DNA from: Faecalibacterium sp.
GTDB lineage: Bacteria > Bacillota > Clostridia > Oscillospirales > Ruminococcaceae
NCBI GenBank assembly: GCA_029264955.1
Contig: JARHYC010000013.1
Span: 1-39,957, forward strand
Length of the DNA stretch: 39,957 bases
Direction of reading: 5' to 3'
The position numbers and the translations under genes are program-made. The notes under the pieces are model-generated. The model was not told the origin of the DNA, ran no database searches, and saw only the letters and a program-made list of their open reading frames with translations. Shown in pieces: positions 16,990 to 22,745 of this stretch; within the stretch, counting starts at the first letter, position 1; every line of letters begins with the position of its first letter.

Positions 16990-17266
16990 AGAAAAAAGAC
17001 TCCGTCCCCAAAAAGGGACGAAGCCTTGAAAATCACTCCGCGGTACCACCCGAATTTTGTCCGCCATATCTATCTGCAGACAACACTTGCAGCTGTTAAC
17101 GACGCCACCCGTCCTGCACTACTAAGTTTTCACCGTTGGCACAGGCCGCTCGGGAGTGAACTTCGGTACTGCTTCCACCGAGAACCCTTTCAGCCGGTGA
17201 GGTTCTTCTCTATACCGGGGTTTGCTGTACTTACTTTCTCCGTCTACGCGTTTGATTCCTATAACA
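16990..17266 (-). promoter_or_regulatory. T-box leader (tRNA-Phe-sensing) of pheST
   Basis: The minus strand carries the T-box motif GGGTGGTACCGCGG (17051-17038), then a terminator hairpin with CGTCCC/GGGACG (17020-17003) and a T-run (to 16991). Upstream lies a long structured Stem I region. A TTC phenylalanine codon at 17160-17158 (minus) is a plausible specifier. Uncharged tRNA-Phe would base-pair with the leader and block termination, raising pheST expression. Open frames inside this segment are shadows. T-box identity is very sure; the specifier assignment is less so. Confidence 0.93.
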
Positions 17267-17655: not shown

Positions 17656-17741
17656 GGATTGTTACTGTACGGCAGGCAAAACCAGATTTTGCGAAAGGAT
17701 ACCCGCATTGTCGGATGTTTTTTCGGAAAATCTGGTTTTTT
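17656..17741 (+). promoter_or_regulatory. RAT antiterminator site overlapping a terminator
   Basis: GGATTGTTACTG and GGCAGGCAAAACC (17656-17683) form the RNA hairpin bound by BglG/LicT-type proteins. Its 3' edge overlaps the left arm of a terminator: AAACCAGATTTT (17679-17690) pairs with AAAATCTGGTTT (17727-17738), followed by a T-run. Binding by the antiterminator stabilises the RAT and prevents the terminator from forming. The site is immediately upstream of the antiterminator gene, so the whole operon is under this control. Confidence 0.93.
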
Positions 17742-17759
17742 GTTTCCATGGAGGCTTCT

Positions 17760-18599
17760 ATGCTTGTCAATAAAACCATCAACAATAATATTGTAAGTTG
17801 TCTGGATGATTCCGGGCACGAACTCATTGTGATGGGGCGCGGTCTTGGCTTTCAATGTAAGCCCGGCACCCCCCTTCGTGCTGATTTGGTGGAAAAAGTC
17901 TTTCATTTGGAAGATCCCCAGCAAGCAGACCGATTCAAAAATCTGGTGCGCAATCTGCCCCCAGCTTATCTGAATCTTTGCACGCGTATCATTGACTATG
18001 CAGCCGAAGTATTAAATGTCCCTTTGCAGGAAATCATTTATCTAACTTTGACCGATCATGTCAGCTTCGCCATTGAGCGGCAAAAGAAGGATATTAGTTT
18101 TCATAATTCGCTGGAATATGAGGTTCGCACCTTTTACCCGCGCGAGTATGCCGTTGGTCGCCATGCATTGACTATGATTCGTGAGGAACTCAACATTGCC
18201 TTGCTGGAAGATGAAGCCGCCAGCATTGCGCTGCATTTCATCAACGCTGAATGTGACGTTTCCTTGCAGGATACCTTGCGCTGCACACAGACACTGCATG
18301 ATATTCTGGATTTGCTGACAACATTTCCGCAGTTAGATCTGCATCCGGGTAAGCCTTATTATGATGAACTAGCAGTCCTGTTAAAGTTTCTGGTACAGAG
18401 GAGTTTCTCCGAACCAGTTTCTACTGCATCAGATCCTGTCCTAGTCGATGTGGTTCGACAGCACTGTCCGCAATCTTTCGAGATTGCACAGCGCATCATA
18501 CAACATTTGGAAAAAACCTGCGGGCATTCTATCCCTGATGAGGAAGCTGCCTGTCTGGCGATTCATATAAGGCGGATTGCAAACGCCGCAAGTACGTAA
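17760..18599 (+). CDS. licT: BglG/LicT-family transcription antiterminator
   Basis: This RNA-binding protein lets transcription pass the upstream RAT terminator when its sugar is present. The 279-residue product has the co-antiterminator RNA-binding domain (residues 1-55: INNNIVSCL, GRGLGFQCKPG) and two PRD domains. PRD1 has both histidines, H100 (TLTDHVSFAIER) and H159 (LHFINAE). In PRD2 the second is present, H269 (AIHIRRI), but the first position is L207 (AVLLKFLVQR; LicT has His there). Numbering matches B. subtilis LicT without gaps. The start at 17760 has GGAGG in place; upstream in-frame ATGs at 17715 and 17749 lie in the terminator or ribosome site. The gene could equally be named glcT given the glucose-type PTS downstream. 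Confidence 0.93.
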   Translation: MLVNKTINNNIVSCLDDSGHELIVMGRGLGFQCKPGTPLRADLVEKVFHLEDPQQADRFKNLVRNLPPAYLNLCTRIIDYAAEVLNVPLQEIIYLTLTDHVSFAIERQKKDISFHNSLEYEVRTFYPREYAVGRHALTMIREELNIALLEDEAASIALHFINAECDVSLQDTLRCTQTLHDILDLLTTFPQLDLHPGKPYYDELAVLLKFLVQRSFSEPVSTASDPVLVDVVRQHCPQSFEIAQRIIQHLEKTCGHSIPDEEAACLAIHIRRIANAAST

Positions 18600-18640
18600 A
18601 CCATTTTTTAGAGACGAACAAAAGAAAGCAGGTACACATT

Positions 18641-19126
18641 ATGGGTTTTTTGGATAAGTTGTTCGGCACGTCCGAACTGGAGATTTGCGCTCCTGTTGCA
18701 GGTAAGGCTGTCCCCGTAAAGGAAGTCAGCGATCCCACCTTTGGCGAAGAGATCATGGGCAAAGGTATCGCAATTCGTCCTACCGGCAATCAGATCGTTG
18801 CTCCTTGCGACTGCACTGTTGACCTGGCTTTCGATACCGGCCACGCTGTCAGCTTGATTGCTGATTTTGGTGCTGAGATTCTGATTCATGTTGGTCTGGA
18901 AACCGTCAGCCTGAAAGGCGAGCACTTCTCCGTCAAGGTGAAGAACGGCGACAAGGTCAAGAAAGGTGACGTTCTGATTGAGTTTGACCGTGAGGCAATC
19001 GCTGCAGCAGGTTTTGATACCATCACCCCCATTGTTGTCTGCAACAGCAGCGAATATGCAACCTTCAACACCTATGTTGATAAGGATGTCAATCCCGGTG
19101 ATAAAATCATCGGCCTGAAGAAATAA
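18641..19126 (+). CDS. crr: PTS glucose-type enzyme IIA
   Basis: A cytoplasmic phosphocarrier that takes phosphate from HPr and passes it to IIB. It has 161 residues, a standard Crr-type length. The active-site histidine H83 is in EILIHVGLETVS and the supporting H68 is in DTGHAVSLI; the N-terminal CAPVAGKAVP is the family signature. It is a stand-alone IIA here, because the IICB protein at the end of the operon lacks a IIA domain. AAAGCAGG lies upstream of the ATG. Second gene of the PTS operon. Confidence 0.96.
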   Translation: MGFLDKLFGTSELEICAPVAGKAVPVKEVSDPTFGEEIMGKGIAIRPTGNQIVAPCDCTVDLAFDTGHAVSLIADFGAEILIHVGLETVSLKGEHFSVKVKNGDKVKKGDVLIEFDREAIAAAGFDTITPIVVCNSSEYATFNTYVDKDVNPGDKIIGLKK

Positions 19127-19153
19127 CTCCTATAGCAGAAAGGACATATTAGC

Positions 19154-20770
19154 ATGAAACAGGGTACTGGACGTCCCGCTTTCTCTGGTGTAGCTATCGG
19201 ACCGGCGTATGTTTATCGCAAGGAATCGAATCAGCTGCCCACTTCTTGCGGTGATCCCGCAGCAGAACAACAGAAATTCGATGAAGCTTGCCAAATTGCC
19301 AGTGAGCAATTAGGCGAGCTGGCCGAAAAGACCCGCCGCGATTTGGGTGACGAGCAGGCTCAAATTATGGAAGTTCAGCAACTGATGCTGTCTGACTTGG
19401 ACTTTTTGGACAGCGTTGCCGACATGATTCGTGCCGGCGCTAGCGCAGCACAGGCTACGCAGGACAGTGGTGATTCTTTCAGTGCAGCATTCGCTGCAAT
19501 GGACGACGAGTACATGAAAGCACGCAGCGTAGATATCAAGGACGCTTCTCAGCGTGTTGTAACCATCCTGTGCGGTGGTAAAACCGGCTTTACCATGGAC
19601 AAACCCGGTATCCTGGTGGCAGAAGACTTGACACCCAGCGAAACCGTGCAGCTGCCCAAGGATAAGATTCTGGCTTTTGTGACCCGTCAGGGTTCTTCTA
19701 ACAGCCACACCGCTATTCTTGCCCGCATCATGAACATTCCCTCTTTGGTGCAGACCCAGATTACTCTGGATGACACCATCGATGGTAAAATGATGATTGT
19801 GGACGGCTTTGAGGGTTCCTATTATATCGACCCCGATGAAGCTACCCTGACCACCATGCAGGCAAAACAGAAGAGCGCCAGCGAGTATCGCCAAGCTTTA
19901 GAGCAGTTCCGCGGCAAGGAAAGTATCACCAAGAAGGGTCGCAAAATCAATGTTTACGCGAACATCGGCAACCCGGAAGATGCGAATATCGCCATGAAGG
20001 GTGACGCCGAGGGTATCGGTTTGATGCGCAGTGAATTCCTGTATCTGGGTCGTGAAACCTTCCCCACCGAAGAAGAGCTGTTCCAAGCATACAAGACTGT
20101 GGTGGAAACCATGCAGGGTCGCCGCGTTGTCATTCGTACGCTGGATATTGGCGCTGACAAGCAGGTTGATTACTTCGGTCTGGAAAAGGAAGAGAATCCC
20201 GCTCTAGGCTACCGCGGCATCCGTATCTGCCTGACGCAGGAAGAAATTTTCCGTCCACAGATGCGTGCTGTTTACCGCGCAAGTGCATTTGGTCCCGTCA
20301 GCGTAATGTTCCCCATGATCACTTCTGTGTGGGAAGTACGCAAGATCAAAGAGTTCTGTGCAACCATTCGTGCAGAACTGACCGCCGAAGGCATCGCCTT
20401 TGGTGAAGTTGAACTGGGCATCATGGTGGAAACCCCTGCTGCTGCTGTTATCAGTGATCAGCTTGCTCAGGAAGCTGATTTCTTCAGCGTTGGTACCAAC
20501 GATCTGACCCAGTACACGCTGGCTATTGATCGTCAGAATGCTAAGCTGGACGATTTCTACGACGCGCACCACCCCGCCGTTCTGGCTCTGATGGAGCTGA
20601 TTGCCAAGAACGCACATGCCGCTGGCATCTGGTGCGGTATCTGCGGCGAGCTGGGTGCTGATTTGACCTTGACGGAAGACTTTATCCGTATGGGCTATGA
20701 TGAACTTTCCGTATCTCCTGGACGCGTTCTGGAGTTGCGAAAGAAAATTTGCGAAAGCGAGGAAGGCTAA
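19154..20770 (+). CDS. ptsI: PTS enzyme I
   Basis: Enzyme I takes phosphate from phosphoenolpyruvate and hands it to HPr. The 538-residue product is slightly short of the typical 570. H185 in GSSNSHTAILAR is the phosphorylated histidine. The C-terminal PEP-binding domain has GIGLMRSEFLYL, FGEVELGIMVETPAA and GICGEL. AAAGGA lies upstream of the start at 19154. It sits 27 bases after crr and 2 bases before ptsH, so it is firmly within the operon. General PTS genes in a sugar-induced operon mean that enzyme I supply itself depends on antitermination, unless another copy exists elsewhere. Confidence 0.98.
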   Translation: MKQGTGRPAFSGVAIGPAYVYRKESNQLPTSCGDPAAEQQKFDEACQIASEQLGELAEKTRRDLGDEQAQIMEVQQLMLSDLDFLDSVADMIRAGASAAQATQDSGDSFSAAFAAMDDEYMKARSVDIKDASQRVVTILCGGKTGFTMDKPGILVAEDLTPSETVQLPKDKILAFVTRQGSSNSHTAILARIMNIPSLVQTQITLDDTIDGKMMIVDGFEGSYYIDPDEATLTTMQAKQKSASEYRQALEQFRGKESITKKGRKINVYANIGNPEDANIAMKGDAEGIGLMRSEFLYLGRETFPTEEELFQAYKTVVETMQGRRVVIRTLDIGADKQVDYFGLEKEENPALGYRGIRICLTQEEIFRPQMRAVYRASAFGPVSVMFPMITSVWEVRKIKEFCATIRAELTAEGIAFGEVELGIMVETPAAAVISDQLAQEADFFSVGTNDLTQYTLAIDRQNAKLDDFYDAHHPAVLALMELIAKNAHAAGIWCGICGELGADLTLTEDFIRMGYDELSVSPGRVLELRKKICESEEG

Positions 20771-20772
20771 TT

Positions 20773-21030
20773 ATGAAAGAGTTCTCTTATGTAATTCAGG
20801 ACCCAATGGGTCTGCACGCACGTCCCGCTGGTCTGCTGGCTAAGGCAGCAGCTGGCTACGCTTGTGATGTAAAGCTGACCGTCAACGGCACTACTGTTGA
20901 TGCAAAGCGTATCATGGGTGTTATGCGTCTGGCAGCGAAGCAGGGCATGGAAATGACCGTTTCCTGCGAGGGTGCTGACGAAGAAAAAGCTGCAGCAGAG
21001 CTGCAGGCTTTCGTTGCTGCGAACCTGTAA
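20773..21030 (+). CDS. ptsH: PTS phosphocarrier HPr, lacking Ser46
   Basis: HPr relays phosphate from enzyme I to IIA. The 85-residue product has the active-site H15 in MGLHARPAG. At residue 46, where Firmicute HPr carries the serine phosphorylated by HPr kinase, the sequence is AKRIMGVM: R46 (codon CGT) instead of Ser. Residue 52 is also Arg. All else is canonical. The start at 20773 lies two bases after ptsI, whose end supplies the GAGGAAGG ribosome site. This HPr can support sugar transport but cannot be made into HPr-Ser-P, the usual CcpA corepressor. The loss is read directly in the sequence; its effect is inferred. Confidence 0.97.
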   Translation: MKEFSYVIQDPMGLHARPAGLLAKAAAGYACDVKLTVNGTTVDAKRIMGVMRLAAKQGMEMTVSCEGADEEKAAAELQAFVAANL

Positions 21031-21114
21031 GCAGCATTTAAGGTTTCGGCCAAAAGATCGTTGTGGGCCGACGGTCTAAAATATAGGCAAAAGAATTAAG
21101 GAGGATCAATTCTT

Positions 21115-22596
21115 ATGATGAAACATTTGCAGAAGCTCGGCAAAGCTTTGATGCTTCCCGTAGCTACCCTGCCCATCTGCGGTATCCTGATGGGTTTGGG
21201 CTATGCACTGGCTCCCGGCGTTATGGGTGTTCCTGACGCTCCCACCTCTGGCTTTATGTATGTTTTGGGCTTCTTCCTGATCAAAGCAGGCGGTGCCCTG
21301 ATTGACAACATGGCTCTGCTGTTCGCTATCGGCGTTGCAGTTGGCCTGGCTGACGACAACGACGGCACAGCCGGTCTGGCTGGTCTGGTTTCTTGGCTGA
21401 TGATCACCAACCTGCTGAGTGTTGGCGTTGTTGGCACCATTGCTCCCGCTATGATCGCTAACAAGACCAATGAGGTTGCTTTCTCCAAGATTGCTAACCC
21501 CTTTATTGGTATCCTGTGCGGCGTTATTGGCGCACTTTGCTACAACAAGTTTAAGAAGACCCAGCTGCCTGATGTTCTGGCATTCTTCTCCGGCAAGCGC
21601 TCTGTCGCTATTGTTACCGGCGTTGTTTCCATTCTGGTTGCTGTTGTTCTGCTGTTCGTCTGGCCCATCGTCTTTGGTGTTCTGGTTGCAATCGGCAACG
21701 CAATCAAGGGTATGGGTGTCGTCGGCGTTGGTCTGTACGCATTCCTGAACCGTTTGCTGATTCCTACCGGCCTGCATCACGCTCTGAACAACGTATTCTG
21801 GTTTGACACCATCGGCATGGGCGACCTGACCGCATACTGGAACCCCACCTCTGAGCTGGCTATGAATGCTAACTGGTCTATCGGTTCTTACATGGCTGGT
21901 TTCTTCCCCTGCATGATGTTCGGTATTGGCGGTGCTGCTCTGGCTATGATTCGCACTGCTAAGCCTGGCAAGCAGAAGGTCGCTATGGGCGTTGTTGGTT
22001 CTGCTGCTATCTGCGCTCTGCTGTGCGGCGTTACCGAGCCGTTCGAGTTCGCATTCATGTTCCTGGCATTCCCCCTGTACGTTGTCTACTCTGCACTGTA
22101 CGGCATCTTTGCTGCTGTTACCGTTGCTCTGGGCTTCCGCGCAGGCTTCTGCTTCTCTGCTGGTCTGACTGACCTGATCTTCTCTGCATCTCTGCCCGCA
22201 GCAGCTAAGACTTGGCTGATCCTGCCCCTGGGCGCAGCTGCATTCATCGTCTTCTACCTGGTCTTCCGTTTCGCTATCGTGAAGTGGGACCTGAAGACTC
22301 CCGGCCGTGAGGACGACGAGGAAGGCGAGATGAAGATTGAGCTGGCAAACGATGACTACACCGCTATGGCTTCCATCATTCTGGAAGGTGTTGGCGGCAA
22401 GGACAACCTGGTTTCCATCGACAACTGCATCACTCGCCTGCGTCTGGAAGTTAAGGATCGCCTGCTGGTTGACGAAAAGAAGATTAAGTCTTCTGGCGCT
22501 GCTGGCGTGATCCGTCCGGGCAAGACCTCTGTGCAGGTTATCATCGGACCTAAGGTTCAGTTCGTTGCTGACGAGTTCAAGAAGCTGGCTAAGTAA
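21115..22596 (+). CDS. ptsG: PTS glucose/N-acetylglucosamine-type enzyme IICB
   Basis: The membrane permease and the last phosphocarrier. The 493-residue protein has an EIIC domain of about ten helices (residues 1-390) with the signature GVTEPFEFAFMF, and a C-terminal EIIB domain with the phosphorylated C438 in IDNCITRLRLEV. No IIA is fused, so it must use the Crr-type protein of the same operon. AAGGAGG lies 10 bases upstream of the first of two tandem ATGs. Glucose and N-acetylglucosamine permeases share this architecture and I cannot separate them by eye. Codon use is very strongly biased, as in highly expressed genes. Confidence 0.94.
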   Translation: MMKHLQKLGKALMLPVATLPICGILMGLGYALAPGVMGVPDAPTSGFMYVLGFFLIKAGGALIDNMALLFAIGVAVGLADDNDGTAGLAGLVSWLMITNLLSVGVVGTIAPAMIANKTNEVAFSKIANPFIGILCGVIGALCYNKFKKTQLPDVLAFFSGKRSVAIVTGVVSILVAVVLLFVWPIVFGVLVAIGNAIKGMGVVGVGLYAFLNRLLIPTGLHHALNNVFWFDTIGMGDLTAYWNPTSELAMNANWSIGSYMAGFFPCMMFGIGGAALAMIRTAKPGKQKVAMGVVGSAAICALLCGVTEPFEFAFMFLAFPLYVVYSALYGIFAAVTVALGFRAGFCFSAGLTDLIFSASLPAAAKTWLILPLGAAAFIVFYLVFRFAIVKWDLKTPGREDDEEGEMKIELANDDYTAMASIILEGVGGKDNLVSIDNCITRLRLEVKDRLLVDEKKIKSSGAAGVIRPGKTSVQVIIGPKVQFVADEFKKLAK

Positions 22597-22681
22597 TTTA
22601 TACTTACCTAATTCTGATTCGAAAGACTTTCGCTCTTTTGCAGGTTACGGGTTAGGCCCACTGCCCGCATGACTGCATTAT

Positions 22682-22724
22682 AAAAAATCCCCGCTGCAGT
22701 ATTAATTGCAGCGGGGATTTTTTA
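22682..22724 (+). terminator. terminator of the PTS operon
   Basis: ATCCCCGCTGCA and TGCAGCGGGGAT pair, extended by A-T pairs, around an 8-base loop and followed by a T-run. It lies about 90 bases after the IICB stop. Confidence 0.93.
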
Positions 22725-22745
22725 TCTGTTCTTCCCTACTCAAGC

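Follow-up and report, generated by a model that had tools for sequence, protein, structure and literature searches.

A clostridial phosphotransferase operon with an Arg46 HPr and a LicT-type antiterminator lacking a PRD2 histidine: a possible division of the two HPr sites between two proteins

HPr is the textbook example of a single small protein whose two phosphorylation sites compete with each other and tie sugar transport to catabolite repression. An operon of the phosphotransferase system (PTS) in Faecalibacterium sp. raises the question of whether both sites need to stay on one protein. The window is the whole stretch of DNA that was analysed, 39,957 nucleotides of contig JARHYC010000013.1 (assembly GCA_029264955.1), and the operon spans positions 17656 to 22596 of its forward strand. 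Its HPr (20773..21030) has His15 and, at residue 46, Arg (CGT at 20908-20910), and its LicT/GlcT-type antiterminator (17760..18599; 279 amino acids) has Leu at residue 207 (codon 18378-18380), with H100, H159 and H269 kept in LicT numbering. A preliminary description had pointed out both substitutions, which we confirmed, and had read them as the joint loss of two catabolite-control handles. We propose, with a probability of about 0.55, that HPr has been split into a PTS carrier and a substrate of HPr kinase (HprK), and that the input to the second PTS regulation domain (PRD2) of the antiterminator thereby became dispensable.

The preliminary description took it as given that Firmicutes carry Ser46 in HPr, a premise that fails for the subfamily encoded in these operons. 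Of 409 relatives in a scan that used eight antiterminators of the family as seed, we retained the 80 best, which are named loci of Oscillospiraceae, Lachnospiraceae and other groups; these, with 40 further stretches and the window and less five duplicates, gave 116 antiterminators for comparison. An HPr gene is present in the operon at 58 loci, with His15 in all 58 and Ser46 in a single one, the residues at position 46 being Arg in 34, Lys in 8, Asp in 7, Asn in 4, Gly in 2, Gln in 2 and Ser in 1. Since 57 of the 58 lack Ser46, R46 is a property of the group and not a local loss, and a residue other than Ser46 is the rule for operon HPrs in this sample. The operon HPr of the window shares 54-69% identity with the operon HPrs of loci L027-L046. 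In an unrooted tree of 80 HPrs, built with the sites in question excluded, Ser46 changes once and R/K46 three times, for a short protein with many weakly supported forks; we infer that Ser46 is the ancestral state. The order antiterminator-EIIA-EI-HPr-EIICB (EI and EII being enzymes I and II of the PTS) is found in 29 of the 80 named loci, and in a class-wide sample drawn for independent origins a match at E 1e-60 was found in 26 of 391 genomes, including that of the window. Seven antiterminator operons, mostly from Lachnospiraceae, encode an Asp46 HPr (L052, L055, L063, L069, L081, L086 and L098), and upstream of four of them (L063, L069, L081 and L086) lies another HPr gene, with Ser46, next to an EI-like gene. 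Asp at this position serves in the laboratory as a mimic of HPr phosphorylated at Ser46 (HPr-Ser-P).

The genome from which the window comes (1.88 Mb, 99.6% complete) has an intact hprK on contig C28, with the P-loop GDSGIGKS, which rules out a loss of HprK from the genome. We found three full HPr genes: the R46 gene of the window, an S46 gene on contig C13 and a T46 gene on contig C24. The C13 protein combines Ser46 with His15 in a full loop, and its gene lies away from both EI genes of the genome. The window HPr belongs to the phosphocarrier family (TIGR01003, 98.6 bits, above the cut-off of 47.9; H15, R17 and P18) and, with R46, lacks the residue that would make it an HprK substrate; neither it (H15/R46) nor the C13 protein (H15/S46) has the replaced His15 together with Ser46 that would define Crh. 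No protein of this genome matched the CcpA model TIGR01481 at E 0.001. LacI-type proteins matched it in 47 of 50 relatives, and none of the 50 exceeded the CcpA cut-off. Three relatives (G167, G177 and G184), like the window genome, have hprK and no match to this LacI-type model. The search for hprK, ccpA and a second ptsH proposed in the preliminary description therefore gave no CcpA match and found the kinase and a Ser46 HPr in place. A second Ser46 HPr serving this antiterminator had been named there as the finding that would overturn the reading; a second HPr with Ser46 is present, as is hprK, and this HPr might serve the antiterminator. The second EI of the genome (575 amino acids) adjoins the T46 HPr on C24 (L110:7760-9755), with no PTS permease seen by eye among the neighbouring open reading frames listed.

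The same division runs through the relatives. We found hprK in 49 of 50, once as a short partial match (G196), and read HPr in 30 of them (75 of 77 full-length matches; the remaining two, from L029 and L030, are R46 HPrs). Of the 30, 29 have an S46 HPr, the exception (G159) being a metagenome bin; a non-Ser46 HPr likewise occurs in 29, the operon contig of G165 ending before HPr, and in G154 and G160 it is a Q46 protein encoded outside the operon. Both kinds are present together in 28 of the 30. Among the 50 genomes searched, 22 have an S46 copy that is 77-95% identical to the S46 HPr of the window genome. Two bins labelled Spirochaetales (G174:C17 and G175:C2) have an S46 HPr directly adjoining hprK, and their antiterminator operon has its own R46 HPr.

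The His15 loop of the S46 copy is decayed in six genomes, reading GLYNRQAT in G161, GLHNRQAT in G162 and GLHNKQAT in G163, G165, G172 and G173. Tyr15 together with Ser46 was seen in one relative only (L137) among the HPrs read. G161 has only two full-length HPrs, one of them H15/R46 and the other Y15/S46, besides a weak third match that lacks the residue-15 region, and the two HPr sites of this bin are split both ways. The accessible part of one report describes Bacillus HPr as having both sites and Crh as lacking His15 (PMC3526391). The relatives resemble this in having a Ser46 paralogue separate from the PTS carrier, with Tyr15 in L137 and the loops HNRQA or HNKQA in five other genomes. They differ in that the Bacillus carrier has Ser46 and the operon carrier here does not, so that the sites are divided in both directions; the S46 copy of the window genome itself differs from Crh in still having His15. 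Clostridial ptsI and ptsH are described as not contiguous in the portion of a review available to us (PMC4706839), which fits the lone S46 HPr of the window genome; a second HPr without Ser46 goes unmentioned in that portion. In our literature search, which took in few subscription papers and is no proof of absence, we met no earlier account of clostridia that pair an S46 HPr with one lacking Ser46. Crh goes unmentioned in a phylogeny of the PTS chain from 2008 (PMC2405797), as far as its text was accessible, and serine comes up there once only, in a general statement on Ser46.

Given a carrier that is closed to HprK at residue 46 as a group, what became of the antiterminators? The PRD1 histidines were found in 116 of 116 (H100) and 115 of 116 (H159) sequences; the one exception, L208, has Asp at the second PRD1 histidine (HDHH, in the order 100, 159, 207 and 269). 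PRD2 histidines were lost in 36 of the 116, one in 19 (HHHS 10, HHHY 3, HHHN 3, HHHC 2, HHLH 1) and both in 17 (HHNN 6, HHQS 3, HHDC 2, HHNQ 2, HHFN 2, HHNS 1, HHDE 1). L207 with H269 kept was seen in the window alone (1/116). Its nearest relatives, labelled Anaerofilum, Gemmiger, Fournierella and Pygmaiobacter, have R46, keep H207 and have lost H269, which rules out R46 and L207 as a joint event; the co-occurrence of S46R and H207L that the preliminary description had proposed to look for across genomes did not appear, R46 being group-wide and L207 confined to the window. Loss of PRD2 histidines looks later than R46 and repeated.

By raw counts, PRD2 damage goes with the residue at position 46: it was found in 32 of the 42 R/K46 operons versus none of the 16 with another residue, mostly in one clade. 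Loci without HPr in the operon have a damaged PRD2 in 3 of 53 cases (L033, L039 and L177), and one more damaged locus (L044) ends before HPr. R46 loci with all four histidines stand both beside (L105, L181 and L191) and inside (L045, L046, L049, L057 and L060) the damaged Oscillospiraceae group, which suggests that R46 arose before the PRD2 damage. When regain is forbidden, at least eight PRD2 losses are counted, seven of them where the operon HPr of the branch is R/K46; such branches make up 21% of the scanned length (binomial P about 1e-4). This test was devised post hoc and counts seven losses of the same clade as independent. A variant scoring HPr-less loci as unknown assigns the R/K state to 80% of the tree and is uninformative.

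These observations can be brought together as follows, with the phosphorylation states, the direction of cause and the dispensability of PRD2 being our reading of sequences. The operon would be a self-contained, substrate-induced PTS of the N-acetylglucosamine/glucose type, with a switch formed by a ribonucleic antiterminator (RAT) and a terminator. Its HPr may represent an old branch devoted to phosphoryl transfer, with His15 kept, position 46 mostly Arg or Lys, and closed to HprK there. The substrate of HprK would be the separate, highly conserved H15/S46 HPr encoded elsewhere, which in some relatives may have become Crh-like after losing the normal His15 loop. The His-P level of the operon HPr would then no longer report the state of HprK and fructose bisphosphate, only PTS flux. 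According to the accessible parts of three papers (PMC6148471, PMC7430163, PMC4706839), such antiterminators are inactivated when the cognate EII phosphorylates PRD1 and activated when HPr~P phosphorylates PRD2. As PRD1 would already report the substrate, the HPr~P input to PRD2 would carry little information, and the PRD2 histidines could be lost along different paths, with H269 gone in most relatives and H207 in the window. Control would be left to PRD1: in the absence of substrate EIIB~P would phosphorylate H100 and H159 and turn the antiterminator off, and in its presence the antiterminator would bind the RAT and prevent the terminator from forming. Since PRD1, the CAT domain and the RAT are intact, substrate-induced antitermination should persist. 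For some virulence regulators it has been suggested that the PRDs are vestigial (PMC8560693).

Several observations weigh against a split carrier with a dispensable PRD2. All four PRD histidines are kept in 10 of the 42 R/K46 operons, two of which (L184 and L206) lie outside the clade, elsewhere in the tree. The 15 D, N, G or Q46 operons are no Ser46 targets either, and none has a damaged PRD2; absence of Ser46 is therefore not in itself enough for PRD2 loss. All but one of the eight inferred losses fall within one clade, so that any clade-specific factor could explain them, and the seed alignment of the scan came from the clade that holds most of the losses. Among six independent pairs differing in R/K46, PRD2 differed the same way in about 1.0, the opposite way in 0.2 and not at all in 4.8 (sign test p 1); the test on a smaller locus set was equally without support, and no independent-pairs contrast, whether on R/K46, on the presence of HPr or on that of EI, supported a link with PRD2 loss. 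When pairs are matched for PRD1 identity, PRD2 divergence gives a mixed picture: for Oscillospiraceae, PRD2 is 2-8 points less identical than in intact pairs in six bins and more identical in the 70-80% bin, and in the small Lachnospiraceae set it departs in both directions. The window sits on a long branch, which makes its position in the tree uncertain. Regarding the paralogues, the S46 HPr of the window genome, with its full His15 loop, may still act in the PTS and could phosphorylate H269, and G172 and G173 each encode an additional S46 HPr whose loop is intact.

The intact PRD2 domains of the ten R/K46 operons and the missing link in independent pairs would also be expected if PRD2 had decayed by lineage drift, independently of a residue 46 fixed long before, in an operon that encodes the main PTS. 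This plainer account, in which such an operon could do without PRD2 input from the start, is possible, though we hold it to be clearly less probable than the split. Its model is the glcT - ptsG-ptsH-ptsI locus of B. subtilis, where an antiterminator whose activity needs no activation by HPr adjoins an operon with a sugar permease and general PTS proteins. The window locus is arranged likewise; it differs in its separate EIIA gene, its gene order, an HPr without Ser46 and an antiterminator that misses the cut-off of the GlcT model. A single PF02378 permease in the window genome might likewise leave little need for a hierarchy of PTS sugars. What counts against drift of this kind is the mostly Lachnospiraceae clade, where EI is missing from the operon at six of the nine loci with a damaged PRD2 (L067, L077, L079, L087, L096 and L101); encoding the main PTS is therefore not required for PRD2 loss. 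Moreover, B. subtilis GlcT itself keeps its PRD2 histidines.

The various explanations are not all mutually exclusive, and PRD2 might also work with one histidine, H269 in the window or H207 in relatives being phosphorylated alone by HPr~P. That 19 of the 36 damaged domains keep one histidine is in line with this idea, which we nonetheless find unlikely, as the other 17, among them relatives of the window, have lost both and full loss is thus tolerated in the group. Least probable of all, in our view very improbable, is the paired loss that would have freed the operon from catabolite control. Part of that claim stands: R46 and L207 are both real, the operon HPr is no Ser46 target, a PRD2 histidine is lost with PRD1 intact, and the raw counts associate. 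Yet hprK and an H15/S46 HPr are kept in the genome, R46 is common to the group, R46 occurs with L207 and without loss of H269 at one locus in 116, and neither the nearest relatives nor the independent pairs tie the two changes together.

The broader picture is what merits keeping: one HPr dedicated to the carrier role and another dedicated to being the target of HprK, the latter in part decayed in the manner of Crh. It is tempting to go further and propose, at somewhat less than even odds, a reciprocal subfunctionalisation of HPr in Oscillospirales and some neighbours: a carrier with His15 and Arg/Lys46 on one side and a Ser46 substrate of HprK with a decaying His15 loop on the other, amounting to a second, Crh-like invention, complete in at least one bin (G161). 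HprK signalling would then be uncoupled from PTS flux, the main antiterminator would have a vestigial PRD2, and HPr-Ser-P of the window genome would act without a recognisable CcpA. Clostridia with the two sites on two proteins offer a natural separation-of-function experiment, which could reveal the role of HPr-Ser-P when it is separated from PTS flux and CcpA is missing, and could show whether antiterminators have PRD2 in order to sense an HPr under double control.

The antiterminator of the window, the sole one with a CAT_RBD domain that we found in the genome, is of the BglG/LicT type, with a CAT RNA-binding domain (PF03123, 70.5 bits, above the cut-off of 25), two PRDs and a leader RAT overlapping a terminator. 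It aligns with LicT over its whole length, and the start codon used gives numbering identical to that of B. subtilis LicT. The best NCBIfam model is LicT (NF046042) with 275.1 bits, short of the curated cut-off of 300, and the GlcT equivalog (NF047357) gives 193.2 bits against a cut-off of 320. Domains, histidine numbering and a LicT-class RAT overlapping the terminator are all as in B. subtilis LicT; the window protein differs in its score below the LicT cut-off, in having L207 in place of the first of the two PRD2 histidines of LicT (207 and 269), and in that the operon under its control includes genes for EI and HPr.

The leader opens with the RAT element GGATTGTTACTGTACGGCAGGCAAAACC (17656..17683), an exact fit to the LicT-class pattern. 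With up to 5 mismatches this pattern occurs in the 500 bases preceding 101 of 114 homologous genes and in none of 114 shuffled upstream regions. An intrinsic terminator hairpin (17680..17742) overlaps the RAT 3′ end and has a T run after its stem, with a fold of -28.8 kcal/mol (z -6.07; none of 200 shuffles equally stable). The antiterminator gene is followed by a free-standing EIIA of the glucose class (18641..19126; TIGR00830, 146.5 bits, cut-off 97.5), EI (19154..20770; 538 amino acids; TIGR01417, 539.6 bits, cut-off 341.7), HPr and an EIICB of the N-acetylglucosamine/glucose type (21115..22596; TIGR01998, 527.2 bits, below the cut-off of 553.2), giving the order RAT/terminator, licT-like gene, EIIA, EI, HPr and EIICB. 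As EIICB is closest to the N-acetylglucosamine model, the substrate is probably N-acetylglucosamine or glucose. EIICB is the sole match in the genome to PF02378 (PTS_EIIC), the one permease family searched for. A terminator-like hairpin with a 20-pair stem and a T run (22680..22725) lies 3′ of the operon, on the same strand.

The family model TIGR01417 matches EI only to position 537 of 565, which indicates a short C-terminus, and the EI-HPr spacing in several relatives suggests a similarly short one. Beside the operon start pheS/pheT-like genes, named by eye, which run away from it on the minus strand; upstream of them, also on the minus strand, lies a T-box leader (window 17011-17255; RF00230, 99 bits).

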